Virus record (IMG/VR): IMGVR_UViG_3300042455_001086
Span: 186,001 to 250,000 of that record
Reading direction: 5' to 3' (one strand)
Origin: a virus
DNA length: 64,000 bases
Positions 16,106-63,900 of the stretch are shown here, in pieces (position 1 is the stretch's first letter; each line of letters opens with the position of its first letter). Position numbers and translations under genes: made by a program. The notes below the pieces were generated by a model. The model had not been told where the DNA came from. It did no database searches and saw nothing but the letters and a program-made list of their open reading frames with translations.

Positions 16106-16130
16106 TTTTTACAAATTTAATTATTTTTAT

Positions 16131-17510: not shown

Positions 17511-17518
17511 AATTTTTT

Positions 17519-17541
17519 CCTCCTATCAGTAATGATAAATA
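17519..17541 (-). promoter_or_regulatory. Strong Shine-Dalgarno plus TATTTAT element
   Basis: AGGAGG (17519-17524) is an exceptional consensus ribosome-binding site for this window, 8 nt before the helicase ATG. TATTTAT (17535-17541) lies 24 nt before the ATG. Confidence 0.55.
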
Positions 17542-17544
17542 CTA

Positions 17545-17994
17545 CTAGTTTTGAATAAATTGTGGATAAAAATAATTAAAATTTTTACCTGAAAAAATGT
17601 CAGTTAGTTCACCTAATATTGTTTTTAGCTTTGGGCGTAGGTCTACGGTGTATCTGACCTTTGGTGGGTATGGTTTTGCATCAAATATCCTATGACAAAT
17701 TGTCATATTTTCTACCTTAATATAAAGGTTAAAATTTTCGTCACCCTCGGTAATTGATGTATTTAACACATCTGGGTTTTCAAAAATTTCATACTGATTA
17801 TCCAACATATAGACAATAGATCTCATCTTCAAATTATATTGAAGTTCATTACAAAACGACTTAATATAATCATAAAACTCTTCTGATTTATGTGCGGTTT
17901 TATTAAACCCTTTCACATTAAAAAATCTTTGAACTACGATGTTTTCATTACACATTAACAAAAATTCAACTTTTGTTATATCCTGATCTCTCAT
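17545..17994 (-). CDS. Hypothetical protein in replication block
   Basis: 149 residues, not recognised. Mixed alpha/beta sequence with several aromatic and Cys residues (MCNENIVVQRFF, FCNELQYNL, MTICHRIF) but no motif pair suggesting zinc binding. It lies 4 nt after the exonuclease gene and 34 nt before the helicase gene, so a role in DNA replication or its control is possible by context only. Confidence 0.7.
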   Translation of the reverse strand: MRDQDITKVEFLLMCNENIVVQRFFNVKGFNKTAHKSEEFYDYIKSFCNELQYNLKMRSIVYMLDNQYEIFENPDVLNTSITEGDENFNLYIKVENMTICHRIFDAKPYPPKVRYTVDLRPKLKTILGELTDIFSGKNFNYFYPQFIQN

Positions 17995-17998
17995 TTTT

Positions 17999-19015
17999 TT
18001 AATTTTTTGTTTTGTTTCTAAAATTTGTTTTTTCTTTTCTTGATAGTTTTAAAAATGGTTTTAAAAAATTTACCCAAGCGTCATCACCTTTTGGTAGAAA
18101 TTTAAAGAATCCGTCGTCCATCATCATTCTAATTAAGTTTCTATGTCCTCTTCCGTCTGGATCCAACGATTCCGAGTAATATAACCTAACCAATTCTTTT
18201 CCTTCCACTGAAATTAGTGGGTTAGCTAAATCCACTAATTTTTCGTTGATTGTGAAAAACTCTTTTCCAAATATTCCCTCTTTGGTTTTTCCACTAAGTA
18301 AATTTTGTAAAGCAACATTTCCTTTTTGTTCCGAAAGTAATGTTTTTGCCTTTGTTAAAATATCGGTATATTTTAACTCCGTATCAAGTATCTCCGGAAA
18401 AAATTTTAGGAATGTTTTTTCACCCAAATAAAATATACCATCAATATTATCCGAACTATCACCAGTTAATATTTTGTAAGTTTTAACATTATAGTGTGGT
18501 ATTTCGGATTCATAAATTTTAATCCCATCACCATTCTTATAATATCTTTTTTGTTGGGGTGAATATATACTTACCTTATCTGAAATAAGTTGTGTTAGAT
18601 CTCTATCAGATGAAAATATTGTTTTTTCTTCATCTTCAGAAATTTGACAATAATAAGCTATTAAATCGTCGGCCTCCGATTGTTCCACTTCCAATTGTCT
18701 AACAAACATTTCTTCAAGGTATTGTTTTACTCTGTTTTTTTGAGTAGTAAAAGATTGTTCTTTATAATCATCATCAACCTTTTGTTTTCTATTTAATTTA
18801 TACTTTGGGTATATAGTTCTTCTCTGTGATGATCCGGTTTCACTATCCCAACAAACAACAATTTTATTGTAATTGTTTTCTTCTAAAAATTTTCTTAAAG
18901 TGTTTAGAAAATGCCAAGTTCCACCAACATGTTCTCCATTGTTAAAGAAGTCTCTAACACCATGCACGCCTATCTTTAATAGGTTGTTACCATCGACCAA
19001 TAAGGTTTTAGTCAT
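17999..19015 (-). CDS. 5'-3' exonuclease, T4 RNase H-like
   Basis: 338 residues from the ATG at 19015, which opens with MTKTLLVDGNNLLKIGVHGV; the VDGNN(L) motif is the first acidic metal site of the PIN/FEN nuclease family. Later acidic motifs: VVCWDSETGSSQRR, EVEQSEADDLIAYY, FSSDRDLTQL and the H3TH-like LTGDSSDNIDGIFYLGEKT. The longer frame to 19111 was rejected because it lies inside the methyltransferase and precedes the conserved start. The protein removes RNA primers and flaps. The ATG overlaps the 3' end of the methyltransferase gene by 8 nt. Confidence 0.9.
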   Translation of the reverse strand: MTKTLLVDGNNLLKIGVHGVRDFFNNGEHVGGTWHFLNTLRKFLEENNYNKIVVCWDSETGSSQRRTIYPKYKLNRKQKVDDDYKEQSFTTQKNRVKQYLEEMFVRQLEVEQSEADDLIAYYCQISEDEEKTIFSSDRDLTQLISDKVSIYSPQQKRYYKNGDGIKIYESEIPHYNVKTYKILTGDSSDNIDGIFYLGEKTFLKFFPEILDTELKYTDILTKAKTLLSEQKGNVALQNLLSGKTKEGIFGKEFFTINEKLVDLANPLISVEGKELVRLYYSESLDPDGRGHRNLIRMMMDDGFFKFLPKGDDAWVNFLKPFLKLSRKEKTNFRNKTKN

Positions 19016-21092
19016 TAATTTCTTCGTTAAGTGGGTTTGACAATATTGGTTCTTCTTTTGTAATATAGTCGGATAAAAACTCTGTAAATATAGCTTCCAT
19101 AACAGGGACACAAATTGAGTTTCCGGCTAGTGCGACATGTGCTGTATTAGACAATGAGGTTGTAAGTAATAAATCAATATCTTGTTCTTTAACACCCATA
19201 AATCTATACCCTTCTCTTGCTGTAATAGTTCTCACTCTACCATCTTCTGTTAGAATTTGTGGTGATCCACTTGTTGTTAAAGTTGGGGAACACCCATCAA
19301 CAGAATAAATTCTTCTTGCCTGATCGTAGCTAATGTCATCTCTTCTACCGATTAATTTACAGATTGTGTGTTTTTTTGGTTGATGTGGTGTAAATTGACA
19401 ATTAACAATCAGATTTGGATTAAAGTTTTCTTCAATGAACGGTCTCATAGGAATTCGTTCTTTTTTGTGATTATCCACATTCATCATTTTTTCTTTAACC
19501 TCATCAATACTACTATTAAGAACGGATACCATAAAAACTCTTTCTCTATTTTGGGGACATCCGAAATCAGCACCATTCAATACTCTCCAGAAAGAACTAT
19601 ACCCAAGTCCTCTTAAAAAATAGATATGTTTTTGAAAATTATCAATGTGATTTTTTGATATTAGGTTTTTAACATTTTCCATCAAAAGATACTTTGGTCT
19701 ATTGGTACTTAATAATCTTTCAACTTCAAATAGTAATCCACTCCTTGTACCTTCTTTAATTCCTTTTTGAATTCCAGAAATTGAAATGTCCTGACAATTA
19801 TGGGCGATACAACCATTTGCTGTGAATGAATGGTCTTCATCTACTTCAATATCATAAACAAATTCAGTATTATTTGTATTAATAATACCTTTAATTGGTG
19901 TCCAAATAAAACCATTATCAAAAAAAGATTTTTTATTTTTACTTTGGTTTAAATCAAAAGCAATTGTGTAACTATCTCTTTGATTAACATATCTACCATC
20001 AATAATGTATTTATCTTTATTTTTTGTTTTATAAATAGAATAAGGTACATTATAACATTTTGCAATACATTGTCCAATACCATAAATTAATTCACGACTT
20101 ACACTTATAATTCTTTGTCTTGTTGAATTTTGATAAAAGCTTCCATCCGCGGAAAAATAACCCTGGATAAATGATGTCAAAAGATTTCTAGGTAAATCAA
20201 AAATTGTATTAGTCAATTTCTTACCGTGAGCATACTTCCCAAATTGTTGGACAAATAAACCAATTTCTTTTTTTGGTAAATGTATCTTATATGTTGATCC
20301 ATCTCTAACAACTGTCGCATTAATTTTCAATCTTTCCAATCTTTCACTAATTTCTTGTAATTCAGAATCATTTTTATTTGTACAACAAATTATTATACCT
20401 CCTTGGTGTCTCATCCAGCCATCACCAATATATCTTCCAATTAACCACCAAAAATCATTATTATCCATATATTTTGATAATTCATTTTTGTGTCTAGTTT
20501 TTCTACCGTCACCCCATTTAAAATCAATCCCATCCCACTTTGGTATAATACTATTTTGATTTATTGCAACACCAAAATAATCATTACTTGTCAAGTCCTT
20601 ACATTCTTTCCAATAAGGCTCTGTTAAATTATTTTTATCTCCATCAATTTTACTAACAACATAAAATCTGTGGTTTTCAGTTGTTTTTAATTCGTCAAAT
20701 ATTGGTGATTTAACACTCCAAATTTCTTTTTTACCTTGATCAAATTTGTTTGTAACTTTTTTATATGTGTTAGTATGTGTCAAAACCAAATCATCAATTT
20801 CAACATCAACAATATTTTTATACCCAGTATCTGTCAATACTAATGTATCTTTTGTAAAACAAGGAAATGAATAGGTTAATAAATCACATTGTGGTAATGT
20901 GTTTTCATTAACCATTCTTATGTCACCAAGATTACCGTGAGTTGTTGTGTGTAACGCATTATAACACTCATTCGCTTGTTTGAAATTATCACAGTTAGCA
21001 ACACTTTCATAATCCACACCAATGTATTTAAGTGCCAACTCTTGGGTTCCGTATCCGGAAAATAACGATACTACTTTTAATTTACTATTCAT
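19008..21092 (-). CDS. C5 cytosine DNA methyltransferase with intein
   Basis: 694-residue precursor. Extein 1 (1-77) carries motif I (VVSLFSGYGTQELAL) and ends LLTYSFP; extein 2 (433-694) begins CQDISISG, giving PCQ (motif IV) after splicing. Further motifs: MENV (VI), QNRERVF (VIII), GNSICVPV (X). Spliced length would be 339 residues, normal for M.HhaI-type enzymes. Residues 78-432 are an intein (separate entry). The mature enzyme would methylate cytosine at C5, probably to protect phage DNA from host restriction; the recognition sequence cannot be read. It lies between uvsX and the exonuclease gene in the replication block. Confidence 0.93.
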   Translation of the reverse strand: MNSKLKVVSLFSGYGTQELALKYIGVDYESVANCDNFKQANECYNALHTTTHGNLGDIRMVNENTLPQCDLLTYSFPCFTKDTLVLTDTGYKNIVDVEIDDLVLTHTNTYKKVTNKFDQGKKEIWSVKSPIFDELKTTENHRFYVVSKIDGDKNNLTEPYWKECKDLTSNDYFGVAINQNSIIPKWDGIDFKWGDGRKTRHKNELSKYMDNNDFWWLIGRYIGDGWMRHQGGIIICCTNKNDSELQEISERLERLKINATVVRDGSTYKIHLPKKEIGLFVQQFGKYAHGKKLTNTIFDLPRNLLTSFIQGYFSADGSFYQNSTRQRIISVSRELIYGIGQCIAKCYNVPYSIYKTKNKDKYIIDGRYVNQRDSYTIAFDLNQSKNKKSFFDNGFIWTPIKGIINTNNTEFVYDIEVDEDHSFTANGCIAHNCQDISISGIQKGIKEGTRSGLLFEVERLLSTNRPKYLLMENVKNLISKNHIDNFQKHIYFLRGLGYSSFWRVLNGADFGCPQNRERVFMVSVLNSSIDEVKEKMMNVDNHKKERIPMRPFIEENFNPNLIVNCQFTPHQPKKHTICKLIGRRDDISYDQARRIYSVDGCSPTLTTSGSPQILTEDGRVRTITAREGYRFMGVKEQDIDLLLTTSLSNTAHVALAGNSICVPVMEAIFTEFLSDYITKEEPILSNPLNEEIND
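19797..20861 (-). mobile_element. Intein with LAGLIDADG homing endonuclease
   Basis: 355 residues (78-432 of the precursor). Block A begins Cys78 (CFTKDTLVLT). Block B has TENH with T138 and H141. Block F is FVYDIEVDEDHSFTANG. Block G ends Ala-His-Asn (H431, N432) before Cys433. All residues needed for splicing are present. The endonuclease has both LAGLIDADG helices: LIGRYIGDG (217-225, Asp224) and FIQGYFSADG (308-317, Asp316), so homing activity looks intact. The insertion is exactly before the catalytic Cys of the methyltransferase. Confidence 0.93.
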
Positions 21093-39230: not shown

Positions 39231-40814
39231 TTAATCAATAGTTAATTCCCAACGAATATTTCCACAATCATATATCCTATAAATTTTTCTATCAAACATA
39301 ATTTGTTTTTCTGTTTTATCTTTATCATAACCCTCTTTCACCAGATTTGATTTATTAAAATTAAATCTATAATGTCTTTTATCACCAATTACATACCAAT
39401 AATTTGGTTTTGATTGTGAAATCATTTTAAAATTTAATTTCTCATACATTTTACCGTCAAAAATTCTAACATCAGAATATGATATTAACTTTTCTGGTTT
39501 ATATGTTGAAACAAAAGACTTTAATAATTTCGATGCCGATCCAATAACATTTGTGTTTATCTTATTACAAAATCTATTTAATTCCCATTCATCTTTTTTT
39601 CCTCCCATAATAATTCTACCTCTTGAAAATGTCATAAGTGATATTAATTCATCATTATGATATAGTCCTAGTTTTACACTTGAATTAACATTTCCCTGGA
39701 TGTGGTTTTCATCTAAAAACTTTTTAGATTCTGGTGTTGATACTTCTTTTATAATACACTTTCTAGCATATATCTTATTTTCACTAATGTTAAGTTTATT
39801 TTTTATAATTGATTTTACAATCTCTTTTTTATATATCCATTCGTCTTCAAAAATATGAACTAAACCAATTCCAAGATTATTACATTTAATCGTCTTTTCC
39901 AAATGATAATTTGGTGATTTAAATAATTCATTATGCCAATATAGACCATTGAACTCAAACCCCATTTTATACTCCGGAATAAATAAATCGACTTCAGCTT
40001 TTGAATTAGGTAATTTATAATTTGTTATGTGTGTGATATTAATCTCGGTTAAAAACTTGGAAATTTCTTCTTCATAACCACTCCTCTGACTAAAACCAAG
40101 CGGGTTACAATTTAAACAACATTCATAATTTCTTTTATGTCGTTCATACAGTAATTGTTTGGGAAGTTCGGATTCATTTTTACAAGTCGGACAAAAAATA
40201 ATAACCGAACCTTTTTTAACTTCCTTAAAACTAATATCTGGATATAAATTTTTAAAATCATTAATTAGTTTGTTTTTGTAATTATTTGATTTTGCATAAT
40301 TATCAACCCCATATTTTAACTCACAAGTTCTTTTTTGTTTATCAACATTATTGTAACTACTATTACCATAATTTATTTCTTTGGTTTTTTTACCCTTTTC
40401 AATATTATTGTAATTTTCATTACCGTATTTTTTTAATTTGGTTTCTTTTTGTTTTTTTATGAAATCATTATGTTGAGTGTAGAAATCAACACCATACTTT
40501 TTATTGAAAGTTTTCTTTTGTCTATTAATTAATTCGTCCTTTGAATTATTTGCACAAGTTAAGGAACAGAAATCACCGTATGGTTTATCAAATCTATTTC
40601 TAAATTTTATTTCATTGCCGCAAGATACGCATTTTGGTCTTTGTGTTAAATTATGAAAATAAAAATATATTTTTTCTTTAAAGGTTATATTGTCTTGGAT
40701 ATTTTTTGAATATTCAACTATTTTTGAATATAATTCTGGTTCATTATTATTTAACCATTTTTCATTGGTTTTATAACCAGATTTATTATTAGTTGTAAAA
40801 AAAGAAAAATCCAT
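39231..40814 (-). CDS. VSR-like homing endonuclease, copy 1
   Basis: 527 residues. Order: N-terminal helical part; Cys-rich finger (CVSCGNEIKF, FCSLTCANNS, ~60-90); at least four repeats of the form 'KYGv.n...........K.T' (~105-175); a second CPTC...CCLNC finger; then a nuclease core with SKAEVDLFIPEYKMGFEFNG, LYWHNE and VHIFEDEW (~265-335). The E..D...(E)fnG.yWH...H..K arrangement resembles VSR-fold EDxHD homing endonucleases (I-Bth0305I type). The C-terminal ~200 residues (FLDENHIQGN, SKLLKSF, YWYV, IYDCG) form a conserved domain shared by all three copies. Inserted between tube and chaperone genes. Confidence 0.82.
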   Translation of the reverse strand: MDFSFFTTNNKSGYKTNEKWLNNNEPELYSKIVEYSKNIQDNITFKEKIYFYFHNLTQRPKCVSCGNEIKFRNRFDKPYGDFCSLTCANNSKDELINRQKKTFNKKYGVDFYTQHNDFIKKQKETKLKKYGNENYNNIEKGKKTKEINYGNSSYNNVDKQKRTCELKYGVDNYAKSNNYKNKLINDFKNLYPDISFKEVKKGSVIIFCPTCKNESELPKQLLYERHKRNYECCLNCNPLGFSQRSGYEEEISKFLTEINITHITNYKLPNSKAEVDLFIPEYKMGFEFNGLYWHNELFKSPNYHLEKTIKCNNLGIGLVHIFEDEWIYKKEIVKSIIKNKLNISENKIYARKCIIKEVSTPESKKFLDENHIQGNVNSSVKLGLYHNDELISLMTFSRGRIIMGGKKDEWELNRFCNKINTNVIGSASKLLKSFVSTYKPEKLISYSDVRIFDGKMYEKLNFKMISQSKPNYWYVIGDKRHYRFNFNKSNLVKEGYDKDKTEKQIMFDRKIYRIYDCGNIRWELTID

Positions 40815-41449: not shown

Positions 41450-43066
41450 ATGGATTTACTTAAATTTTTTATAGAAAATAATAATAGTGGTGCAAAAACT
41501 AAAGAATCTTTTTTAAAAAAAAATTATCCAGAGTTATATTTTGAAATAATTAACTACAATAACAACGATTTAATTGATTTACCCTTTAAACAAAAAATAT
41601 GGCACTACATCAATAAAATCCAAAATATACCAAAATGTCAGAATTGTGGTAATAATTTGAAATTTAAAAAATCATTAACTGAAGGTTATGGTTTATATTG
41701 TTCCGTTTTATGTGCCAACAAATGTGGAATAAGAAAAACAAAAATCAAAGAAACAAATATTGTTAAATACGGTGGAAACGCACCAATTTGTTCTGATGAT
41801 GTTAAAAATAAAATAAAAGAAAGTTTTATTAGATCATTTGGTGTTGATAATGTTTTTAAAGATAAAGAATATATAAAATCAAAAACAATAGAAAAACACA
41901 ATGTTGATCATATATCAAAACTTGATTCAACCAAAGAAAAAATAAAAAACACAAACCAAACTAAATACGGTGTTTCAACTCCTTTAGTTTTACCAGAAAT
42001 TAGACAAGTTGGGTTTGATAAAAAAACTGAATGGTTTTATTCTAAATATGAAAATTTAAATGTTATTGGTTATACCGGAAAAACAATTGAAATAAAATGT
42101 GATAAATGTAATCAACCTTATTTAATTGAGAGGTCTTTGCTGTCTTATAGATTTGAAAATGACATAAACCCTTGTATTTTGTGTAATCCAATAAATGATT
42201 TAAAATCATTTAAAGAAAAACAAATCTGTGAATTTTTAGATGAACATAATATTAAATATGTTGAAAATGACCGCAATATTCTTAAAGGTCAAGAATTAGA
42301 TATTTTTATACCAGAACATAATATTGCCATTGAATTTGACGGTTTGTTTTGGCATTCAGATAAATTTAAAGACAAACAATATCATAGTTTAAAAACAAAT
42401 GAATGTAAAAAACTAGGTATTAGAGTGGTTCATATTTTTGAAGATGAATGGGATAATAAAAAAGAAATTGTAAAAAGTAGAATTAAAACATTATTAGGTC
42501 TTACTAGTGTTCGTGTTTTTGCTAGAAATTGTGAAGTAAAATATGTCGACACACAAACAAAAACAAAATTCTTGGAAGAAAACCATATCCAGGGCTCAGT
42601 TGGTAGTAAATTTAATTTAGGTTTATATTACAATTCAAATTTAATATCTATAATGACATTTGGTAAAAAAAGATTAAATCTTGGATATAAAAAAACAGAA
42701 AACAATGAATATGAATTACTTCGTTTTTGTAATAAACTAAACCACATTGTTGTTGGGGGTGCGTCTAAGCTACTTAAAAGGTTTATCGTTGATCAATCAC
42801 CAAAAGAAATTATAAGTTATGCTGATAAGAGGTGGAGTAATGGTAATTTATATGAGAAGTTGAACTTTTCTTTTGTAAAAGAAACAACACCGAATTATTA
42901 CTATGTCGTTAATAAAAAAAGAGAATCAAGATTCAAATACAGAAAAGATGTTTTGGTTGATTTGGGATATGATTCAAATAAAAGTGAATTTGAGATAATG
43001 GAAGAAAGAGGTATTCCAAAAATTTATGATTGTGGAAATCTATTATACAAAAAATCCCTAAAGTAA
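41450..43066 (+). CDS. VSR-like homing endonuclease, copy 2
   Basis: 538 residues, plus strand inside a minus-strand tail operon. Same architecture as the copy at 39231: finger (CQNCGNNLKF, YCSVLCANKCG), KYG-type repeats (~110-190), second finger (CDKCN, CILCNPIND), nuclease core KGQELDIFIPEHNIAIEFDG, LFWHSDKFKDKQYHSLKT and VHIFEDEWDNKKEIVKSRIK, then the shared C-terminal domain (FLEENHIQGS, GGASKLLKRF, ISYADKRWS, KIYDCGN). The reversed orientation and its own terminator indicate independent mobility. It separates the tube gene from the HAD gene. Confidence 0.83.
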   Translation: MDLLKFFIENNNSGAKTKESFLKKNYPELYFEIINYNNNDLIDLPFKQKIWHYINKIQNIPKCQNCGNNLKFKKSLTEGYGLYCSVLCANKCGIRKTKIKETNIVKYGGNAPICSDDVKNKIKESFIRSFGVDNVFKDKEYIKSKTIEKHNVDHISKLDSTKEKIKNTNQTKYGVSTPLVLPEIRQVGFDKKTEWFYSKYENLNVIGYTGKTIEIKCDKCNQPYLIERSLLSYRFENDINPCILCNPINDLKSFKEKQICEFLDEHNIKYVENDRNILKGQELDIFIPEHNIAIEFDGLFWHSDKFKDKQYHSLKTNECKKLGIRVVHIFEDEWDNKKEIVKSRIKTLLGLTSVRVFARNCEVKYVDTQTKTKFLEENHIQGSVGSKFNLGLYYNSNLISIMTFGKKRLNLGYKKTENNEYELLRFCNKLNHIVVGGASKLLKRFIVDQSPKEIISYADKRWSNGNLYEKLNFSFVKETTPNYYYVVNKKRESRFKYRKDVLVDLGYDSNKSEFEIMEERGIPKIYDCGNLLYKKSLK

Positions 43067-43146: not shown

Positions 43147-43980
43147 TTAATATTTAGTTTTCTTTCCTCCTGCTGTTAAATAAGTTTGTAATATATTATC
43201 TTTCTTTTTATCAAAATGACTTTTCATCTTTTCTACATTTCTTACATCATCATCTGAAAAACCAATAAATGGTGTAAAATAATTTGAAATTTTATTTTTC
43301 ATAAATGCTTTTTTCTGTAATCTATGTGATAATAGTTTTACATATCTAACGAACTCTTCCATAGCATCAATTTTTCCTTGCTCCGGATTCGTTGCCGAAC
43401 CTTCACCAAATGATACCGGGTGGAATCTACACATATCTAAATATATATCTACAAGTTCATCATCCGTTAAATCTTCTTCATCTGCAAGGTCTCTATATTT
43501 TTTAAGATTTTTAACTAATTCAGATTTACTTAAACCGTGTTTATTTGAATTAATTAATCTATGAACCGCTTCCTTTAAAATTGAAGGTGTATGCCCTCTA
43601 GCTGTGACGATTGCAAAGATTGAACCATTATTTATTGCTTCCACAAAATCAGACCACGCTGGTCCTGTTGGAGCTTTCATTGCATCAGTTAAGAACTTAT
43701 TATCTCCAGTCACTCTAAAGTCTCTAAATGGATCTTCATCAAAACCAACAATTGTATTTCCTTTATAGTTAAAGGGTTCTTTTCCGATTTCAGTTCTATA
43801 CTCAGCAAAATCTTCTGTCGACATACCAACTGGTTTTCCATTATCATCCTTCAGATAAATTTTTGTCGGCATAAACATCAAATTATCATCCCAATCAAAA
43901 GCATAATATTTCATTGTTGGTGATGAGGTTTCATCAATTATTTCATTGATTAATTTTTTTATGTATTTTTTCTGATTCAT
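43147..43980 (-). CDS. HAD-superfamily phosphatase-like protein
   Basis: 277 residues. HAD motif I is YYAFDWDDNLMF (D.D.n), motif II AIVTARGHTP, and motif IV GFSDDDVRNVEKM; these are the nucleophile, Thr/Ser and metal-binding acidic positions of Mg-dependent phosphotransferases. The substrate is not evident; polynucleotide 3'-phosphatase or nucleotidase activity is possible. The N-terminal segment KKYIKKLINEIIDETSS is a short amphipathic helix outside the HAD fold. It lies inside the tail operon between sheath and tube genes, which is unusual for an enzyme. Confidence 0.8.
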   Translation of the reverse strand: MNQKKYIKKLINEIIDETSSPTMKYYAFDWDDNLMFMPTKIYLKDDNGKPVGMSTEDFAEYRTEIGKEPFNYKGNTIVGFDEDPFRDFRVTGDNKFLTDAMKAPTGPAWSDFVEAINNGSIFAIVTARGHTPSILKEAVHRLINSNKHGLSKSELVKNLKKYRDLADEEDLTDDELVDIYLDMCRFHPVSFGEGSATNPEQGKIDAMEEFVRYVKLLSHRLQKKAFMKNKISNYFTPFIGFSDDDVRNVEKMKSHFDKKKDNILQTYLTAGGKKTKY

Positions 43981-44033: not shown

Positions 44034-45557
44034 TTAATTTATTTTCAATTCAAATTTTAACGAACCACAATCCCATATCCTATCATATTTTTTTAATTTC
44101 ATAATTTCCCATTCTGTTAATTCTTTATTGTAACCTTCTTTGACTAAAACATCTTTCCTAAACGAAAATCTATGTGATCTATTTAAATATCTTTCTGTGT
44201 TTATATACCAATAATTTGGTGGTGTTTGTTTTACGAAATTAAAACCATTTTTAAAATACACAGTTTTTGTTTGATCTAAACCAGACCATCGAATATCAGC
44301 AAATGTTTCTATTTTAGATGGATTATATTTTTTAATGAAGTTCTTTAATAGTTTAGAAAATCCACCAATAATTGTTAAATTAATTTTATTACAAAATCTA
44401 ACTAACTCATATTCTGAATTATCCCTATTATCATTACCTAATGATTTTCTTTTTTTTCCAAATGTCATAACAGAAACTAATTCATCATTATAAAATAGAC
44501 CAAATCTAACCTTATCTATCGAATTTCCTTGTAAATGGTTATTTGTTAAAAACAATGAGGATTCTTTTTTTGGAATTTCTTTTATTTCACATTTTCTGGC
44601 GAAAATTTTATTACTCAATTCTAATTTATTTTTTAATTTTGACAACACAATATCTTTCTTTAATAAGATTTCATCTTCATAAAATTGAATGAGGGTGATT
44701 CCTTTATCATAACAAAGTTTTGTTTTATCAATATGATAATTTTTTGTTTTTTCACCACTTATTTCAGAATGGTAATAATTACCATTAACCTCAATTCCAA
44801 TATTATAATCCGGTAAATAAATATCTATTTCTCTACCATTTAGTATTTTTCTATCACCATCAATATGTTTAACACCTATACTATTTAGATAATCTTTAAT
44901 TATTTGTTCCAGTTTTGAATTTTTAATAATTGGGTAACACTTACGACATATCGGAATTTTACCAGAACCTAAAATTGTGCTACTAAAGATATTGTCACAT
45001 TTACAACATTTAAACATATAAGGTTGTGATGTTTTACCACTTTTATTAGCCACATATGTATCTAATATCTCAAGATTATTTTCATTTAATTTTGGTAGTA
45101 AATTTAATAAATGTTTATCTCTCAATGTTGATTTTAATTTGTCGACAAATTCCGGAACTAACATTGGGGATTTAACTCCGTATTTTTTCATAAAAATACT
45201 CTCATACGACTCTTTGAATTCTTTTGTTTTAAACAAACTATCAACCCCATATTTTTGACGGAGTGTGTTCTTCGATTTGCCTAACCGATATTCAATATGT
45301 TTAGGATTTGAGTTCCATAATATTCTACATTCTTCCGAACATATTTTTTTCTGATGTTTCTTCCTTTCTTCAAATTCTTTACCACATTGAACGCAAGTTC
45401 TTATTTCTCTAACATTAGAGTCTTTCGTCTTACCAAGTAATTTATTCTTTCTAGCGTAGTTAAAATAACAACTTCTATCACAAAATTTCTTATCTCTGTG
45501 TTTAAAATCAGTAATAAATGATTTATTACAAGATAAACATTCTAATTCAACTTTCAT
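44034..45557 (-). CDS. VSR-like homing endonuclease, copy 3
   Basis: 507 residues from the ATG at 45557 (MKVELECLSCNKSF); a frame open to 45638 was rejected because the finger starts here and a TATTTAT element lies at 45598. Two adjacent Cys fingers (CLSCNKSFI...FCDRSCYFNYA and CVQCGKEFEE...CSEECRILW), KYGV-type repeats, a third finger (CCKCDN...CRKC), then the nuclease core NGREIDIYLPDYNIGIEVNG, YYHSE and TLIQFYEDEILLKKDI, and the shared C-terminal domain (FLTNNHLQGN, GGFSKLLKNF, RIWDCG). More divergent than the other two copies. Located between sheath and HAD genes. Confidence 0.83.
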   Translation of the reverse strand: MKVELECLSCNKSFITDFKHRDKKFCDRSCYFNYARKNKLLGKTKDSNVREIRTCVQCGKEFEERKKHQKKICSEECRILWNSNPKHIEYRLGKSKNTLRQKYGVDSLFKTKEFKESYESIFMKKYGVKSPMLVPEFVDKLKSTLRDKHLLNLLPKLNENNLEILDTYVANKSGKTSQPYMFKCCKCDNIFSSTILGSGKIPICRKCYPIIKNSKLEQIIKDYLNSIGVKHIDGDRKILNGREIDIYLPDYNIGIEVNGNYYHSEISGEKTKNYHIDKTKLCYDKGITLIQFYEDEILLKKDIVLSKLKNKLELSNKIFARKCEIKEIPKKESSLFLTNNHLQGNSIDKVRFGLFYNDELVSVMTFGKKRKSLGNDNRDNSEYELVRFCNKINLTIIGGFSKLLKNFIKKYNPSKIETFADIRWSGLDQTKTVYFKNGFNFVKQTPPNYWYINTERYLNRSHRFSFRKDVLVKEGYNKELTEWEIMKLKKYDRIWDCGSLKFELKIN

Positions 45558-45597
45558 CGGTAAAATATATTTAATAGTTATGAGTATGTCTCTACAA

Positions 45598-45604
45598 ATA
45601 AATA
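45598..45604 (-). promoter_or_regulatory. TATTTAT element
   Basis: 40 nt upstream of the start chosen for endonuclease copy 3 (45557), just after the sheath terminator. Confidence 0.4.
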
Positions 45605-45617
45605 TACGAAGATAATA

Positions 45618-45657
45618 TAAAAAAACAAAATCCCCCAAAAAAAATTTGAGGGATTTT
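45618..45657 (-). terminator. Terminator after tail sheath gene
   Basis: AAAATCCC and GGGATTTT pair, extended by C-G and three A-T pairs after one mismatch. On the minus strand a T7 run follows. It lies 24 nt beyond the sheath stop. Confidence 0.8.
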
Positions 45658-51612: not shown

Positions 51613-53373
51613 TTGGAAATACAAAAAAAACTGATAGAACATAAAGCCCTTGATTTATTGGACTCATATAGTGGGGCCAATAACCATATTCTATATATGA
51701 AGACCAAAAAAGAAACTAATAAAAAGTTTTATCCAACAAGAACTCAAGCCGAATATGTTGTAACTTATTTTGATACAAAACCAAAGGTTGCAAGAAAGTG
51801 GGTTGAACTGGATCCATACTTTGCAAAGAAGTTTGCACAAGAAAGATATTTGTTTGAAACGCCAGAAAAAGTCTATATTGAAAAGCTACTTGTTGAAAAA
51901 GATAAATCATATCATATCTGGGGTAAATTTTTTGAAAAAGACAGTTTGTCCGAATTTTGGGTGCCCAAGTCGTCCCTTATTAAATCACAAACGGTAGATG
52001 ATATTGTTATTGATTATTCTAAATACGAACATAGACCTCCACTATCACACCAGAAAGAAGCAATAGAAAAACTTACAAAATCTAGAAGATTTATTTTAGC
52101 TGATGACATGGGCGTCGGAAAGACATGTTCCACAATTATCGCAGCACTTGAGACCAACACAAAAAAAATTTTGGTAGTTTGTCCTGCGTCACTTAAAATA
52201 AATTGGCAACGAGAATTTAACATATATACCAATCGTAGTATTTTTATTGCTGAAGGAAAAAAATTCTCAACGGAACACGATATTGTAATTGTTAATTATG
52301 ATATTTTAAAGAACTTTTATGATATTAAAAACCCAAGTGATTCGCCAATTGGTCAAACTAACTTTGATTTAATCATATTGGATGAAGCTCATATGGTAAG
52401 TAATAGTCAAGCTGCTAGAACAAAAATAATTAATAGTTTTACAAAAAAAGCCAAATATTTGTGGTTATTAACGGGAACACCAATGACAAACAGACCAATC
52501 AACTATTATAATTTATTAAATTTGATTGAAAGTCCGGTTGCACAAAACTGGATGGCGTATGCTATTCGTTATTGTCAAGGATTTCAGTTTAGAGCTGGCA
52601 ATCGAAAAATATGGAATGTAACCGGAGCATCAAATCTGGAAGAATTAAGAGAAAGAACATCAAAACAAATTTTAAGAAGATTAAAAGAAGATGTTTTGGA
52701 TTTACCGGATAAGATTATTACACCCGTATATTTAAGAACATCATCAAAAGAATATAAAGATTTAATGGGTGAATATTATGAATGGTTAGAAAATAAAAAA
52801 GAAGAATCCTCTTCTCTTACCGTTCAGTTCTCAAAACTTATGAAAGTAAGAAAAGTAATTGCAAATGAAAAAGTAAAAGAAACAATTGAATTTGCTCAAA
52901 ATATTATAGACCAAGGAAAAAAAGTAATAATATTTACAAACTTCACAGATACACTTCAACTTATCCATAATCATTTTGGTAAAGAATCGGTATATCTTGA
53001 TGGTAGTTGTAATAAAGTCCAAAGACAATACGCTGTAGATCAATTCCAAGAAAATGAAAAAATTAAAGTGTTTGTTGGAAACTTAAAAGCCGCCGGTGTT
53101 GGACTTACATTAACTTCAGCCGAAGTTGTAATAATGAACGATTTATCATTTGTTCCCGCAGAACACGCACAAGCTGAAGATAGGGCATATCGTTACGGTC
53201 AAAAAAATAATGTATTAGTTTATTACCCAGTGTTTATTAATACAATTGAAGGTACGATATATGATATTCTAAATAAAAAGAAAAAAATTATCGGAACCGT
53301 AATGGGTGATGAGGTCCAAGATACTGGTGATGTTGTGGAAGAAATTTTGAATCTTATAAATAAAAGACCTTAA
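51613..53373 (+). CDS. SNF2-family helicase (SMARCAL1/UvsW-like role)
   Basis: 586 residues with a probable TTG start at 51613; the first ATG (51697) would remove 28 residues of conserved-looking sequence (KALDLLDSYSGANNHILYMK). Motifs of superfamily 2 SNF2 enzymes: Q-type region YEHRPPLSHQKEAIEKL, Walker A ADDMGVGKTCS, DEAH box LIILDEAHM, motif III LLTGTPMTN, motif V LKAAGVGLTLTSA, motif VI QAEDRAYRYGQ. Likely a DNA translocase for fork remodelling or recombination, a role UvsW plays in T4. First gene of a plus-strand cluster that continues with virion-type genes. Confidence 0.88.
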   Translation: MEIQKKLIEHKALDLLDSYSGANNHILYMKTKKETNKKFYPTRTQAEYVVTYFDTKPKVARKWVELDPYFAKKFAQERYLFETPEKVYIEKLLVEKDKSYHIWGKFFEKDSLSEFWVPKSSLIKSQTVDDIVIDYSKYEHRPPLSHQKEAIEKLTKSRRFILADDMGVGKTCSTIIAALETNTKKILVVCPASLKINWQREFNIYTNRSIFIAEGKKFSTEHDIVIVNYDILKNFYDIKNPSDSPIGQTNFDLIILDEAHMVSNSQAARTKIINSFTKKAKYLWLLTGTPMTNRPINYYNLLNLIESPVAQNWMAYAIRYCQGFQFRAGNRKIWNVTGASNLEELRERTSKQILRRLKEDVLDLPDKIITPVYLRTSSKEYKDLMGEYYEWLENKKEESSSLTVQFSKLMKVRKVIANEKVKETIEFAQNIIDQGKKVIIFTNFTDTLQLIHNHFGKESVYLDGSCNKVQRQYAVDQFQENEKIKVFVGNLKAAGVGLTLTSAEVVIMNDLSFVPAEHAQAEDRAYRYGQKNNVLVYYPVFINTIEGTIYDILNKKKKIIGTVMGDEVQDTGDVVEEILNLINKRP

Positions 53374-53404: not shown

Positions 53405-55504
53405 ATGAAACTTACTGTAAAACATATTGATTCTGGTCTTGACCCACAAGACAAGAAAATGTATAACGATTTTATTAAATTTATAAATTCAAAATATCCA
53501 GTCAATAAAGAACTCGAAATTTTATTTCTTGGTGAGAAAAATGGACATATGTCCACTGGGTCTCAAAATATGAACGGAGTTATTAAAGTCTTATCCAAAA
53601 ATAGATTGAACCGTGATATAATGAGAACTCTAGCACACGAATGGGTTCATGCGCATCAAAGATTTGTTTTAGGTAGAGAAAGAGGTCCGGACATTGGTGG
53701 TCAAAATGAAGATGAAGCAAATGCTTTCGCTGGACAATTAATTAAAATGTTTGAAAAAGAATATCCAGACTATAATGAACTTGTTTTTGAACATTCAAAA
53801 CCATTAATAAAAAAACTTGATCTTTTAAAAGAAGAAATTCTTAAAACAGAAAAACAAAATTTACATAAAGAATTTATTACTGAAATGAAAAAAATTGGTA
53901 TTGAAAAATTACCATATTCATATTCGGCTATGAAACAATTTGTTGATCCTAAAACAATGGACATTCATTACAACAAACATTATAAAGGTTATGTTAAAAA
54001 ATTAAACGCCGCATTATCAAACAAAAAAGGTGAAATGGAACTTGAGGATATTGTTAAGTCCATATCAAAATTTGACACAAAAGTAAGAAACAATGCTGGT
54101 GGGGCTTTTAACCATGCTTTATTTTGGAAAATGTTGTCACCAAAAAAACAAAAACCAAGCAAATCAATTTTAGAAAAAATTAAAAAAGATTTTGGAAATT
54201 TAAAAAAATTAAAAGATGAATTTAATTTAATTGCCAAAGATGGTTTTGGTTCTGGTTGGGCTTGGTTAATTCTTACAAAAAATAATAAATTAAAAATAAC
54301 TTTTACACCAAACCAAGATAATCCATTGATGGATGTTGTCAAAGGTGGTGGTTTTCCGTTACTAGGACTTGATCTTTGGGAACATGCTTATTATTTAAAA
54401 TATCAAAACAAAAGAGACGAATATATAAATAATTTTTGGAACTATATAAATTGGGATTTTGTTAATGATTTATATGAAACGAAATCAAAAAAGAAATTAA
54501 ACGAATCATTAAGAAAAATTATTGTTGAAAATGATACTATGGATTATGATTTAAAAAAGGCAATGAGTCGTGAATTACAAAAAATCAGACTTATACCCTT
54601 GGATGCCGAATCCGCATCAGAAGCAATTAAAAACATCATAACTGCCGAAACTTCAAGAGGTAATATTGATTTTAATAGAACACTTGAAGGTCTTATGTCG
54701 CTTAATTTGAGTAATGTATCAGAAAGATCAAAATATAGATTTAATAATTATTTTCAAAGATTTGTAAAAAGTAAGTCAAGAGGTCTTGATTTTGAAGGTA
54801 TGGTGGCCGGATTTTTAAATGGTGATCTAGCAACAAGTAATGTTTCACCATTCGATGTCTCAACACCAGCTGGTGATAAAATTTCTTGTAAAATCGTTAG
54901 AAGTCAAAAAGAACGAATAACACTTAAAAGTATTAAAGAAACATTGGGTCAATATTTAGCCAACTATTCTGGTTCTGAAGAAAACAAACAAGAATTGTTA
55001 AAGATGAGCCAACAACCAAATTTTCTTAGATTATTGGTAAATCACGAAAATCAAGATTTGAAAAATCAAGCCGAAGATATATTGGAATTTTTACTTACAG
55101 ACATCACCGGGTTGTTGGTTGGTATCCCAAATGAAACAAAAGTTGGAATTGATTTATATTATTATGATAAAAATAAAATTATTGATCTTGTTAAAACACC
55201 TGGGTTATTAAATGCCGGAAGATCACCAGAAGCACAAACAATATCATTATCAACAAAAATACTTAGTGGTGATAAAACTATGTCTGGATTTATTCAGTTT
55301 CCAGTTTTAACAATGGATGATTATCAATCTTTTTTAATTGGTGATGAAAAAACAAAAGAAGTTTTAAATTTATTTAATCAACTTGGAAACAAATACGGTG
55401 TTCCAAGACTTGGAGACAATTTACCACAAGACATTATTATAGGTTTATCTAAAAATGAAAGATTCAAGTTAGATCTTAAAAAATTGGTAAATCCAATAAG
55501 GTAA
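53405..55504 (+). CDS. Metallopeptidase-superoxide dismutase fusion protein
   Basis: 699 residues, three parts. (1) 1-~150: zinc peptidase-like domain with HEWVH (78-82) and a later NEDEANAFA (Glu104 as possible third ligand). (2) ~165-358: complete Fe/Mn superoxide dismutase, from LPYSYSAMKQFV through MDIHYNKHYKGY, FNHALFW and PLLGLDLWEHAYYLKY; the four metal ligands map to His188, His237, Asp323 and His327, and Tyr196 matches the active-site Tyr. (3) ~365-699: after a helix SLRKIIVEND, an unrecognised domain with FDVSTPAGDKISCKIVRSQK. Flanked by a helicase and a neck protein gene. SOD activity is likely; why a phage protein carries it is unknown. Confidence 0.88.
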   Translation: MKLTVKHIDSGLDPQDKKMYNDFIKFINSKYPVNKELEILFLGEKNGHMSTGSQNMNGVIKVLSKNRLNRDIMRTLAHEWVHAHQRFVLGRERGPDIGGQNEDEANAFAGQLIKMFEKEYPDYNELVFEHSKPLIKKLDLLKEEILKTEKQNLHKEFITEMKKIGIEKLPYSYSAMKQFVDPKTMDIHYNKHYKGYVKKLNAALSNKKGEMELEDIVKSISKFDTKVRNNAGGAFNHALFWKMLSPKKQKPSKSILEKIKKDFGNLKKLKDEFNLIAKDGFGSGWAWLILTKNNKLKITFTPNQDNPLMDVVKGGGFPLLGLDLWEHAYYLKYQNKRDEYINNFWNYINWDFVNDLYETKSKKKLNESLRKIIVENDTMDYDLKKAMSRELQKIRLIPLDAESASEAIKNIITAETSRGNIDFNRTLEGLMSLNLSNVSERSKYRFNNYFQRFVKSKSRGLDFEGMVAGFLNGDLATSNVSPFDVSTPAGDKISCKIVRSQKERITLKSIKETLGQYLANYSGSEENKQELLKMSQQPNFLRLLVNHENQDLKNQAEDILEFLLTDITGLLVGIPNETKVGIDLYYYDKNKIIDLVKTPGLLNAGRSPEAQTISLSTKILSGDKTMSGFIQFPVLTMDDYQSFLIGDEKTKEVLNLFNQLGNKYGVPRLGDNLPQDIIIGLSKNERFKLDLKKLVNPIR

Positions 55505-55524: not shown

Positions 55525-56649
55525 ATGGCAATTATATCTGAACCAGGAAGGAGCGACCTTTATAAAAAAGTAAGACATTTACTTGGTGCCCCTTTAAGAA
55601 GTGTTGAATTGGAAGACGAACAAATGGATACTCTTCTTGAATTTTCAATTGACGAATATTCACAATATGTTCAAGATTGGTTAATTGAATCTCAATGGTC
55701 AGCATTAAATAATTTAAACCTTGATACACAATCTTTATCCAGAGCTTTCACAACAAGAAGTTTGGATTATGAAACAAGATATACTTACGCATACTCAAAA
55801 ATTGTTGGTCTTCAAGCCGGCGGTGATTGGGTATTGAAAAAAGATTATATTCAGTTGGTTAAAGGACAACAAATTTATGAAATTCCGGCAAATAGAGAAT
55901 TAAATGAGATGTTGTGGTTCACGCCACCAGAAATGAATAACTTACTTTTTGATCCTTGGGCATTTGGTGGTATTGCTGGTGGTGGTATTTCAGGACCAGC
56001 AGGTTATGCTCAAGTTGGTAATTTATCTGGTAGTTACTTTTTAATGCCAGCATTTGATATGTTATTGAGAATGCAAGAAATAAATATTCAAAAAAGAATT
56101 ATCGCTGGTGAATTAACATATAGAGTAACAGCATTACCAGATGGTAAGAAAGCGGTTCATTTGATGAACACACCAGGTGGTAAATTTGACTTCGGTAATT
56201 CAACATTAATGAAAGGAAAAGTTTGGTATTGGTATTATGATGTTGGTCCGGAAGATAGAGATAAATGTTTAAAGGATAATCCAGATATTATCAAATTACC
56301 ATCTGATGTTCCATTTGACAAAATGAGTTGGCACGACTTAAACAATCCGGCACAAATCTGGGTTAGAAGGTGGTTTATAGCATATTGCAAAGAAACACTT
56401 TCAAAGGTTCGTGGTAAATTTAGTGGTAATTTAAAAACACCAGATGGTGATTTACAACTGGAATGGCAAACACTAGCGACAGAAGCTAAAGATGAAAAGA
56501 CAAAATTGATAGATGAATTAATTGGTGCTGAAGGTCGATTAACTAGGTTAAAACCAGAAAAAGTAATAGAAAGAGACGCATTAATTGCCGAAAACTTAAA
56601 TAAATCCCTAAAATTTAGGGCGATGCCAAGACAAATATATGTGATATGA
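55525..56649 (+). CDS. Neck/head-completion protein, gp13-like
   Basis: 374 residues. The N-terminal part DLYKKVRHLLGAPLRSVELE, then QMDTLLEFSIDEYSQYVQDW is the charged helical start typical of T4-like neck gp13 proteins, followed by LKKDYIQLVKGQQIYEIPAN and a Gly-rich loop (FGGIAGGGISGPAGYAQVG). The segment WVRRWFIAYCKETLSKVRGK near the C-terminus is also characteristic. Such proteins close the filled head and dock the tail. Other neck/tail genes of the set lie on the opposite strand at 49316-50875, so the cluster has been broken by inversion or insertion. Overlaps the next gene by 4 nt (ATGA). Confidence 0.72.
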   Translation: MAIISEPGRSDLYKKVRHLLGAPLRSVELEDEQMDTLLEFSIDEYSQYVQDWLIESQWSALNNLNLDTQSLSRAFTTRSLDYETRYTYAYSKIVGLQAGGDWVLKKDYIQLVKGQQIYEIPANRELNEMLWFTPPEMNNLLFDPWAFGGIAGGGISGPAGYAQVGNLSGSYFLMPAFDMLLRMQEINIQKRIIAGELTYRVTALPDGKKAVHLMNTPGGKFDFGNSTLMKGKVWYWYYDVGPEDRDKCLKDNPDIIKLPSDVPFDKMSWHDLNNPAQIWVRRWFIAYCKETLSKVRGKFSGNLKTPDGDLQLEWQTLATEAKDEKTKLIDELIGAEGRLTRLKPEKVIERDALIAENLNKSLKFRAMPRQIYVI

Positions 56650-60257: not shown

Positions 60258-61838
60258 TTATGAATGTGTTATAATCCAGTTATATGGGGATCCGGTTAAA
60301 AAATTTCTTGCGGCAATTCCATCGTAACCACCTGAACTAGCATCTGGTGCGCCGTTTGTTCCCCCTATTTTTAAATTAATATTTGACCATCCGGTCGGAT
60401 TGTAAGTAGCGTTTCCACTAAAATCGACCAAAATGTGGTTTACATCAGAAGATGACATATTATTATCATATAATCCAATAATAGGTCTCCCTTGTGTTGC
60501 CCCTGATATTAATGTGGCTCCTGATAATGGTTTAAAATCAACATAATCTAAATTACAGTCAAACATTCTAAAAGCCGAGAACGAATCGTTATTACTAGTA
60601 TTTCTAAAAAAAGTATTGACGTTAGGAAAAATAACATTAGTTAAATTATCATTACCGCTAACTTGGATATACCCTGTCGAAGCGGAGCTTGACCCACCTA
60701 ATTTTGTTAAATTTGTTAAATTCAAATTTCCGGTTAGGTTACAATTATTAGCCAAATAAGACGTAAAATTTTGTGATGATTGTGTATGCGTTATATTTGT
60801 TAAACCGGTATTATTATATATCGAAAAATTACCACCCAAACCTGATAATGGTGTTAAATCTAAATTTCCTGTTAAATTACAAGAATGCACAGAATAATTA
60901 CTAAAATTTTGTGATGATTGTGTATGTGTAATACCAGTTAAATTGGAATTAGAATGAGCTTGAAAATTACCACCCAATCCTGATAATGGTGTTAAATCTA
61001 AATTTCCTGTTAAATTACAAGAATACACAGAATAAGACGTAAAATTTCGTGATGATTGTGTATGTGTAATACCAGTTAAATTGGGATTACTATAAGATCT
61101 AAAATCACCACCCAAACCTGATAATGGCGTTAAATCTAAATTTCCTGTTAGGTTACAATTATTAGCCCAATATCTTGTAAAATTTTGTGATGATGGTGAA
61201 TGTGTAATACCAGTTAAGTTTAAGTTATTATTAACATAAAATTCACCTCCCAAACCAGATAATGGTGTTAAATCTAAATTTCCTGTTAAATTACAAGAAT
61301 ACACAGAATAAGACGTAAAATTTCGTGATGATTGTGTATGTGTAATACCAGTTAAATTGGAATTATTCTGAGTTTGAAAATCGCCACCCAAACCTGATAA
61401 TGGTGTTAAATCTAAATTTCCTGTTAAATTACAAGAATACACAGAATAAGTACTAAAATTTTGTGATGATGATGAATGTGTTATTCCTGTCAATCTTGGG
61501 TTATTTGAAACAATAAAAACCCCACCCAAACCTAATAATGGTGTTAAATCTAATTTACCATATATGTTATCATTAAATAAATTAAATCCATTAATGTTAC
61601 TAAAACTATTACCTCTCATTTGAATGGTTCTAATTTCTGTGTCAGCAGAAAACCCACTATATGTGATTGAATTTCCGGCTGTTTGTGTAATATTTGTCCC
61701 ATTATTAAGTTTCCAAGAAACCCTTCTTGAACCACTACTAAATGTAACATCCGGATCAAATGATGTTGTTGACCCACTTTTTTGAAATGTCAGTACTTGA
61801 CCTATATTATTTCTTGATGTAAATTGTTGCCTACTCAT
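60258..61838 (-). CDS. Repeat-rich adhesin/tail fibre-like protein
   Basis: 526 residues. Residues ~95-390 consist of seven 46-residue units with core CNLTGNLDLTPLSGLGG and connecting LTGITHTQSSQNF; five are nearly identical and the first and last are divergent. Periodic N, L and hydrophobic positions resemble leucine-rich or BspA-like solenoids. The N-terminus (QQFTSRNNIGQVLTFQKSGS) may attach to the virion. It follows a tail fibre gene with a 9-nt gap, so a receptor-binding or host-surface role is likely. DNA repeats are listed separately. Confidence 0.75.
   Translation of the reverse strand: MSRQQFTSRNNIGQVLTFQKSGSTTSFDPDVTFSSGSRRVSWKLNNGTNITQTAGNSITYSGFSADTEIRTIQMRGNSFSNINGFNLFNDNIYGKLDLTPLLGLGGVFIVSNNPRLTGITHSSSSQNFSTYSVYSCNLTGNLDLTPLSGLGGDFQTQNNSNLTGITHTQSSRNFTSYSVYSCNLTGNLDLTPLSGLGGEFYVNNNLNLTGITHSPSSQNFTRYWANNCNLTGNLDLTPLSGLGGDFRSYSNPNLTGITHTQSSRNFTSYSVYSCNLTGNLDLTPLSGLGGNFQAHSNSNLTGITHTQSSQNFSNYSVHSCNLTGNLDLTPLSGLGGNFSIYNNTGLTNITHTQSSQNFTSYLANNCNLTGNLNLTNLTKLGGSSSASTGYIQVSGNDNLTNVIFPNVNTFFRNTSNNDSFSAFRMFDCNLDYVDFKPLSGATLISGATQGRPIIGLYDNNMSSSDVNHILVDFSGNATYNPTGWSNINLKIGGTNGAPDASSGGYDGIAARNFLTGSPYNWIITHS
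60715..61560 (-). repeat. Tandem 138-bp coding repeats
   Basis: Seven tandem units of 138 bp encode the 46-residue protein repeats of the 60258-61838 gene. The middle five share almost identical blocks, for example the segment encoding GNLDLTPLSGLGG, while the intervening 8-10 codons vary. Such repeats allow copy-number change by recombination. Confidence 0.85.
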
Positions 61839-62772: not shown

Positions 62773-63900
62773 TTATGAAGATATTTCTGTCGCAAAGCAA
62801 ATTTCTCCTTTTTCTCTAATTAATCTTTCCATATCATTGAAGGAAATATAAGCTGTGCCATTTATACCCCAACTTCTACCCCAACTATTTTTCATTCTAA
62901 ATATTCTTTTTCTTGTGTCAACACCATTTATCACATAGGCATGACCTCCAAGTAAAGGACCACCAATTCTTATATTTCCATTTCTATCTGGAAAGAACAT
63001 ATTTCTATACCAATTTGTCCCAACCACTACCGGTCCAATATTTAAAACAGAATCAATTAATGTTTGAAGTGTATAACCCCAATAATAATTTCTTACCTTA
63101 CCTACTTGTTGTAGATATTTTACACCACCCCTTACCGAAGTTCCATTATAGTTTTCACCTGGCCATTCATCAAGTTTTTGAGCGTTTTCATAAATTATTT
63201 TAGGTTGAATGATTGGCGCAACACCTGGTTGTCCAATTGGACCGTCTTCCAACCAATGAGCCCAAGAAAAACCAACACAATGCGGTGTATTTCCTTGATT
63301 TCCCCACCATCCATTATCATCCCAATATCTTGATGTTATTGTCACCCTTGATCTTGATGAGGTTAAAAGGTGGTTTTCAATTAAATAATTATTATCCCGT
63401 TCATCTGGCTTATGTGTTCTACCAAGTGGAAATTCTGTTTCGACAACTGTTGTTGTTGCTGTTACTGGAATAACTGGTGTTGAAACACAACAAGGAAATT
63501 CTGAAACATAACAACTTTCATATGGTAAATCATCACCTATAAAACTTTCTTGGATATTAATATATAATTTTTCTCTTATCGGTAAAATTAAAACACCCTC
63601 GTTCTCGGTTCTAAATAAAAACTGACCTTCAAATCTCCCAACCTTATTTGTGTCTTTTGACTGGAATTGGTAATAAACATAATACTCAACCGGAGCATTT
63701 GGATCCGTAAATTCTTTTTTTGTGAAACCAGCCGGCCTTGTCACTATTTTTGGAATTCCGGTTTCAACATCTGACATTGAAAAGAATATTGCTGATTCCT
63801 CAATGAAATTCATAAAACTATTGTAGTCACTTCTACCGTCTTTTACCACTTGAATTTTTAACAATGGTAATGTTGCGTTCTTTTTAATATAAAATTCCAT
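62773..63900 (-). CDS. Virion protein with papain-like cysteine protease domain
   Basis: 375 residues. The first ~130 residues (FYIKKNATLPLLKIQVVKDG, FFSMSDVETGIPKI) resemble the N-terminal beta domain of BppU-like and other phage baseplate proteins. From ~165 a C1A-like peptidase domain follows: NQGNTPHCVGFSWAHWLEDG (oxyanion Gln and nucleophile Cys ~207), GGHAYVINGVD (His ~317) and RMKNSWGRSWGING (Asn ~335), so the catalytic triad is complete. There is no signal peptide. It heads the fibre operon; cleavage of host surface proteins or of virion proteins is possible. Confidence 0.85.
   Translation of the reverse strand: MEFYIKKNATLPLLKIQVVKDGRSDYNSFMNFIEESAIFFSMSDVETGIPKIVTRPAGFTKKEFTDPNAPVEYYVYYQFQSKDTNKVGRFEGQFLFRTENEGVLILPIREKLYINIQESFIGDDLPYESCYVSEFPCCVSTPVIPVTATTTVVETEFPLGRTHKPDERDNNYLIENHLLTSSRSRVTITSRYWDDNGWWGNQGNTPHCVGFSWAHWLEDGPIGQPGVAPIIQPKIIYENAQKLDEWPGENYNGTSVRGGVKYLQQVGKVRNYYWGYTLQTLIDSVLNIGPVVVGTNWYRNMFFPDRNGNIRIGGPLLGGHAYVINGVDTRKRIFRMKNSWGRSWGINGTAYISFNDMERLIREKGEICFATEISS

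Follow-up and report, generated by a model that had tools for sequence, protein, structure and literature searches.

The gene studied here lies in a 64,000-nucleotide stretch of DNA (hereafter the window), taken from a virus record of 257,166 bases, in which it spans positions 186001-250000. Its product consists of a peptidase-like domain, a leader-like linker, a superoxide dismutase (SOD), a second leader-like linker and a C-terminal domain that we call type A (Table 1). An initial annotation had placed the open reading frame where we find it and had described SOD lying between a peptidase-like and an unrecognized domain of a single phage protein; domain searches and alignments upheld both points. 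The gene sits between genes for a DNA helicase and a neck protein. The neck gene lay directly 3′ of the SOD gene in 67 of the 71 loci in which this could be tested, and in the other 4 about 1.4 kb separated the two; free genes of the B type described below fill this gap at L027-L029. A PADLOC search gave no match.

Table 1. Features of the SOD gene and its neighbors (positions are those of the window; a slash marks a candidate cut site)
Feature	Residues	Position	Strand	Basis or remark
DNA helicase (phrog_62), upstream neighbor		51613..53373	+	Kept in most loci
Whole open reading frame	699 aa	53405..55504	+	
Putative zincin-like metallopeptidase domain	1-130	53405..53794	+	34-sequence alignment
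HEWVH (H78-E79-W80-V81-H82)	78-82	53636..53650	+	34-sequence alignment
Linker 1, L-K-E(143)/E-I-L	131-165	53795..53899	+	[LI]xE in 111/111 relatives
Fe/Mn superoxide dismutase, Mn-type	166-358	53900..54478	+	Pfam, PDB, ligand alignment, NCBIfam
Metal ligand His188	188	53966..53968	+	Alignment of 84 sequences
Metal ligand His237	237	54113..54115	+	Alignment of 84 sequences
Metal ligand Asp323	323	54371..54373	+	Alignment of 84 sequences
Metal ligand His327	327	54383..54385	+	Alignment of 84 sequences
Internal leader-like segment KKLNESLRKIIVEND	363-377	54491..54535	+	Possible cleavage at LNE(367)/S and IVE(375)/N
Type A C-terminal module	379-699	54539..55501	+	16-sequence alignment; free copies with leaders also occur
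Neck gene, head-tail adaptor Ad2 (phrog_211), downstream neighbor		55525..56649	+	Conserved

Elsewhere in the window, a 694-aa open reading frame (19008-21092, minus strand) resembles DNA cytosine methyltransferases and seems to contain an intein (CFTKDTLVLTDTGYKNIVDVEIDD ... ANGCIAHNC). Three related open reading frames of about 530 aa (39231-40814, minus; 41450-43066, plus; 44034-45638, minus) look like Vsr/EDxHD-like endonucleases; they surround the tail tube and sheath genes and are probably mobile homing endonucleases. The frame at 60258-61838 (minus) is built of repeated LTGNLDLTPLSGLGG-type units, which are leucine-rich-repeat-like, and the structural-looking product of 62773-63900 (minus) has a C-terminal papain-like cysteine peptidase domain (NTPHCVGFSWAHWLED ... 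GHAYVINGVD ... NSWG).

Both Pfam halves of an Fe/Mn SOD were recognized far above their cut-offs: Sod_Fe_N (PF00081) at residues 166-245 (3.6e-20; 72.6 bits versus a cut-off of 27) and Sod_Fe_C (PF02777) at residues 251-355 (5.8e-38; 129.5 bits versus 20.9). The top PDB match of the region was 5a9g, a manganese SOD (residues 151-363; E = 1.2e-64), and the NCBIfam model for the manganese type scored the domain higher than that for the iron type (186.9 versus 141.5 bits). Across 84 aligned relatives the metal ligands, three His and one Asp, were invariant apart from one end gap. The second-shell residue Tyr196 was found in 83 of the 84; the dimer-interface motif WEHxYY was present, with E326 and Y330 in every sequence. 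The annotation had numbered the ligands and Tyr196 exactly, and its claim of a complete SOD agrees with the Pfam, PDB and alignment results. With dN/dS values of 0.07 to 0.13 (Nei-Gojobori, against four relatives), the SOD domain is intact and under purifying selection. It is an Fe/Mn SOD on every sequence feature and presumably an active enzyme.

The HExxH residues of the N-terminal domain (H78, E79 and H82), together with a downstream EDEA motif, were invariant in 34 N-terminal domains, so the peptidase-like domain that had been noticed around HEWVH is real. The longer motif NEDEANA holds a candidate Glu for a third metal ligand. Family matches to this domain were solely subthreshold (M78, SprT-like, M76, DUF4344 and DUF6055), a profile of it found nothing significant among PDB sequences, and no relative was detected in 84,980 bacterial and archaeal genomes at the sensitivity used. 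We therefore call it a putative zincin. The C-terminal module had been listed as unrecognized, and it matched no Pfam, PHROG or PDB family, profile search included. Its 16-sequence alignment has the motif pattern FE..PFDV..SCK, by which it is faintly reminiscent of PD-(D/E)XK nucleases.

Relatives of the SOD protein are encoded on at least 195 viral contigs, many of them full-length, and the 81 loci that we examined include full-length versions from many samples with 58 to 100% identity. The annotation had named an assembly chimera as one finding that would overturn it. This distribution of the fusion, together with the invariant ligands and purifying selection, effectively rules out, as far as sequence can, both a chimera and a dead SOD. 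The statement that phage-encoded SOD is uncommon stands among isolates, where a few stand-alone SODs occur (Fe/Mn SOD-like genes of the PA5oct/MIJ3 group and Vibrio phage 2.275.O), and does not stand in this clade. The phage SODs formed one long-stemmed clade (support 100/99), set among mostly Bacteroidota sequences, in a tree that also included 45 bacterial SODs. Their closest cellular relatives were mostly SODs of Bacteroidota, at 46 to 57% identity, and, when major capsid proteins are compared, the nearest isolates include a Flavobacterium phage at about 41%. A Bacteroidota host is therefore likely for the SOD-carrying phages, and the phage studied here is probably a large phage of freshwater Bacteroidota bacteria. 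The phage SODs that lack the peptidase domain (those of G006, L225 and L212) fell outside the remaining ones, which suggests that fusion to the peptidase domain is derived, in a tree whose root is not fixed.

What follows the SOD differs among relatives. Some proteins, of about 366 aa, have nothing after it, and the rest carry one of at least four kinds of tail: A, as in the window protein; B/G, which are mutually related and about 120 to 150 aa long; E, with a clearer PD-(D/E)XK-like motif (GQD..QVK); and F. Modules also occur in series, as SOD-G-E or SOD-E-A. When the tail label was mapped on a quick SOD tree, 12 parsimony changes were required versus a minimum of 5, which indicates that tails were exchanged repeatedly. 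Judged from these sequences, the region C-terminal to the SOD is a module that can be exchanged and has been swapped again and again.

The same modules are found outside the SOD gene. In G002, the SOD tail KPLNES-ISLKEKLLGLIKKVG (ISLKEKLLG) is of kind B, which this genome also encodes as several free proteins starting MKIIITESQYKLIKEN-VSLKEKLLGLIKKVG (VSLKEKLLG), and some of the free copies adjoin the SOD gene. Kind G is found free as MKIIITES-SRDRLVLKWLNKEFGDLT, kind A is found free after a leader ending in ILNE, and kind F occurs in non-SOD proteins behind LKESKLNIILTE. In L225 and L212, the order is SOD-E-A and each part is preceded by a leader. Both proteins have the homolog of linker 1 as their N-terminal leader (in L225, MERAANLLKEIILTKEDILSE), and INITENMNSTIIITKEQAQIMNFLISE, which separates E from A in L225, retains a Met at the would-be start of a free gene. 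Another chain built in this way is encoded at L295 (1114-4134, plus strand), a 1,007-aa module F relative without SOD. Its order is an N-terminal hydrophobic domain (LETM1-like?), ILTED, a second HExxH peptidase-like domain, ILTEDQ and module F.

The constancy of the neck gene next door might suggest that the protein is a structural element of the neck or tail and has an SOD built into it. We consider this very improbable, given that the SOD protein matches no structural-protein family, that its tail is freely exchanged or absent, unlike a structural part, and that its upstream neighbor encodes a helicase.

Tails of every kind join the SOD at a common motif. Among 60 distinct tailed relatives, which are mutually related and do not represent 60 independent events, [LIVM]xE was found no more than 22 aa after the SOD in all 60 and [LI]xE[SN] in 52, across every tail kind. 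Random interior windows of 22 aa contained these patterns in 32% and 4% of cases, respectively; [LI]xE by itself was common, at 23%. Tail-less relatives end just before the junction motif and are followed by the neck gene. We scored leader likeness with a weight matrix built from 61 leaders, using flanking positions only, against 2,260 interior [LI]xE sites. LNE367/S fell at the 99.5th percentile and E375 was unremarkable (51st); the linker 1 site at E143 fell at the 92.8th. Twenty of 25 class A junctions exceeded the 95th percentile, compared with 7% of control windows. Junctions of kinds E, F and G retained the core motif, and leader likeness in their flanks was slight or absent.

The leaders themselves are found throughout the genome. 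A strict form of the motif, [LI][TNQ]E[SAN], occurred in the first 30 aa of 25 of the 294 predicted proteins of this phage, 6.7-fold over protein interiors, and was similarly enriched at the N-terminus in G006 (7.3-fold) and G002 (4.7-fold). The control motif [LI]xD was not enriched there (0.7 to 0.8). Examples are MNLQESIRRILREE, from a cluster of neighboring genes, MKKIIRLTESDLTRIVKRVINE and MKIIITESQ. The isolate Flavobacterium phage immuto has the leader motif in 6 proteins, 7.7-fold in the same direction but a number too small to carry weight; the prohead protease of this isolate has ...LLTES near the N-terminus. By analogy, these leaders may target proteins to the capsid. The cluster just mentioned lies outside the window, at genome positions 83916-91473 (L086), and consists of small neighboring genes with near-identical N-termini (MNLQESIRRILREE) and differing bodies; the gene at 87190-88128 has a second, internal copy of MNLQESIRRILREE at residue 201 and is a candidate two-cargo fusion. 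Inside the window, an open reading frame for a HAD-like phosphatase (43147-43980, minus strand) also opens with the leader pattern (MNQKKYIKKLINEIIDE).

Since the junction sites of the SOD gene resemble the leaders of dozens of other phage proteins, packaging in the virion, as proposed by the annotation, is plausible. The neck neighbor to which that proposal appealed gives no basis for it, though conserved. The term polyprotein, which the annotation also used, seems apt, given a prohead-protease-like [LI]xE site at the SOD/tail junction and, less strongly, at the peptidase/SOD junction. The N-terminus of the 699-aa protein, MKLTVKHIDSGL, has no leader ending in L/I-x-E; the leader-like segments are internal. 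This is the main point in favor of another account, in which the product is an intracellular multidomain enzyme whose auxiliary SOD protects the cell during phage replication, with neither packaging nor cutting. An intact and conserved SOD, the stand-alone SODs of other large phages and the many tail-less forms of the gene would all suit such an enzyme. We nevertheless think it rather unlikely, because it leaves unexplained why all kinds of tail join at an [LI]xE motif common to dozens of N-terminal leaders.

A candidate protease for such sites is at hand. The genome encodes a head maturation protease of the gp21 type (phrog_207; E = 5.6e-43; genome positions 11778-12506), as well as a portal protein and a major head protein of the T4 type (phrog_138). 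In three genomes, the capsid protein carries LINE/A near residue 60. T4, taken as a control, has MKTYQEFIAE/A and INELLRE/S, and its gp23 has LTE/A at residue 65. The T4 targeting sequence is N-terminal and 10 to 20 residues long. As described in PMC9026906, T4 gp21 cleaves after L/I-X-E, the first 10 residues of IPIII are enough for packaging, and foreign proteins fused to the leader (CTS) are packaged and delivered. From the gp21-type protease and the capsid LINE/A site, we would expect the prohead-type protease of this phage to accept LNE/S. Among the other head genes seen, the portal open reading frame of L082, which lies outside the window (14400-18422, minus strand; 1,340 aa), has HNH endonuclease matches at residues 115-371, a pattern expected of an intein or a homing insertion.

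These matches also bear on the idea that the motif does another job, such as tagging proteins for a partner of host or phage origin, and that multicopy tails recombine into the SOD gene as fusions that are tolerated rather than functional. Kinds B and G are indeed multicopy and adjoin the SOD gene, and tail swaps have been frequent, as the parsimony count indicates. Yet purifying selection acts on the class A tail (dN/dS 0.07 to 0.37), and the motif is the same as the one at which the T4 protease cuts and as the site in the capsid protein itself. We regard tolerated fusion as distinctly unlikely.

The reading that we favor, with a probability of roughly one-half, is that the gene encodes a head precursor polyprotein that is loaded into the prohead, cut into separate enzymes and delivered with the DNA. 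The [LI]xE leader-like segments between the domains would draw the precursor into the prohead core, where the T4-type prohead protease would cleave it after Glu. The peptidase, the manganese-type SOD and the cargo (possibly a nuclease), by now separate domains, would then stay in the mature head and enter the cell with the phage DNA, and the delivered SOD would lower superoxide during early infection. Its role may be to counter a host oxidative response or to protect the phage's own machinery. Targeting, cleavage, packaging, delivery, enzyme activity and benefit are all predictions drawn from sequence and from the T4 analogy. Several points tell against the head-polyprotein reading: an internal leader may not target, that of T4 being N-terminal; [LI]xE by itself is a common pattern; and the flanks bear weak likeness to leaders in tail kinds E, F and G and reach only the 92.8th percentile at junction 1. 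The broader proposition, that a clade of large, probably Bacteroidota-infecting phages packs enzymes into its heads as polyproteins, in which internal targeting and cut segments link a peptidase-like domain, an SOD and interchangeable cargo modules so that several enzymes come from one precursor, and swaps cargo by recombination at the cut site, is tentative, and we put it slightly short of even odds.

If true, this would be a natural multienzyme delivery precursor, a cuttable chain of head cargo with a site for cargo exchange, and the entry of a phage-borne SOD at infection would become testable. A sequence rule would also then predict the injected proteins of a large group of uncultured phages; in three genomes, about 25 proteins per genome have the strict motif, and their function is mostly unknown. 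Phage SODs as such are already known. Our literature searches found no account of such a fusion, of the exchangeable tails or of internal leaders, which is weak evidence given that few subscription papers were covered.

Compared with bacterial Mn-type SODs (PDB 5a9g and 6gsc), the phage SOD has the same two domains, all of the metal ligands and the second-shell residues, but it is embedded in a longer protein and belongs to its own long-stemmed clade. The stand-alone phage SODs of the PA5oct/MIJ3 group and Vibrio phage 2.275.O are about 30% identical, single-domain and set in another gene context. In the giant phages phiKZ and SPN3US, many head proteins are likewise cut at a short motif before delivery as ejection proteins (PMC5694885). 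The motif there is SXE in phiKZ and AXE in SPN3US, the propeptides are long, and the passages of PMC5694885 considered here describe no comparable string of enzymes. For T4, the passages of PMC9026906 considered here mention no SOD or such enzyme chain and no targeting from an internal position. We rejected filing the SOD protein as a T4-type CTS-tagged internal head protein, because an N-terminal leader was looked for and is absent from it. What it has in common with the system of T4 IPI-III and Alt is the [LI]xE motif, a gp21-type protease, a gp23-type capsid protein and many N-terminal leaders. In the T4 internal proteins, however, the leader is N-terminal, whereas in the SOD protein the leader-like segment is internal and lies between the enzymes of a multidomain chain whose cargo is exchangeable.
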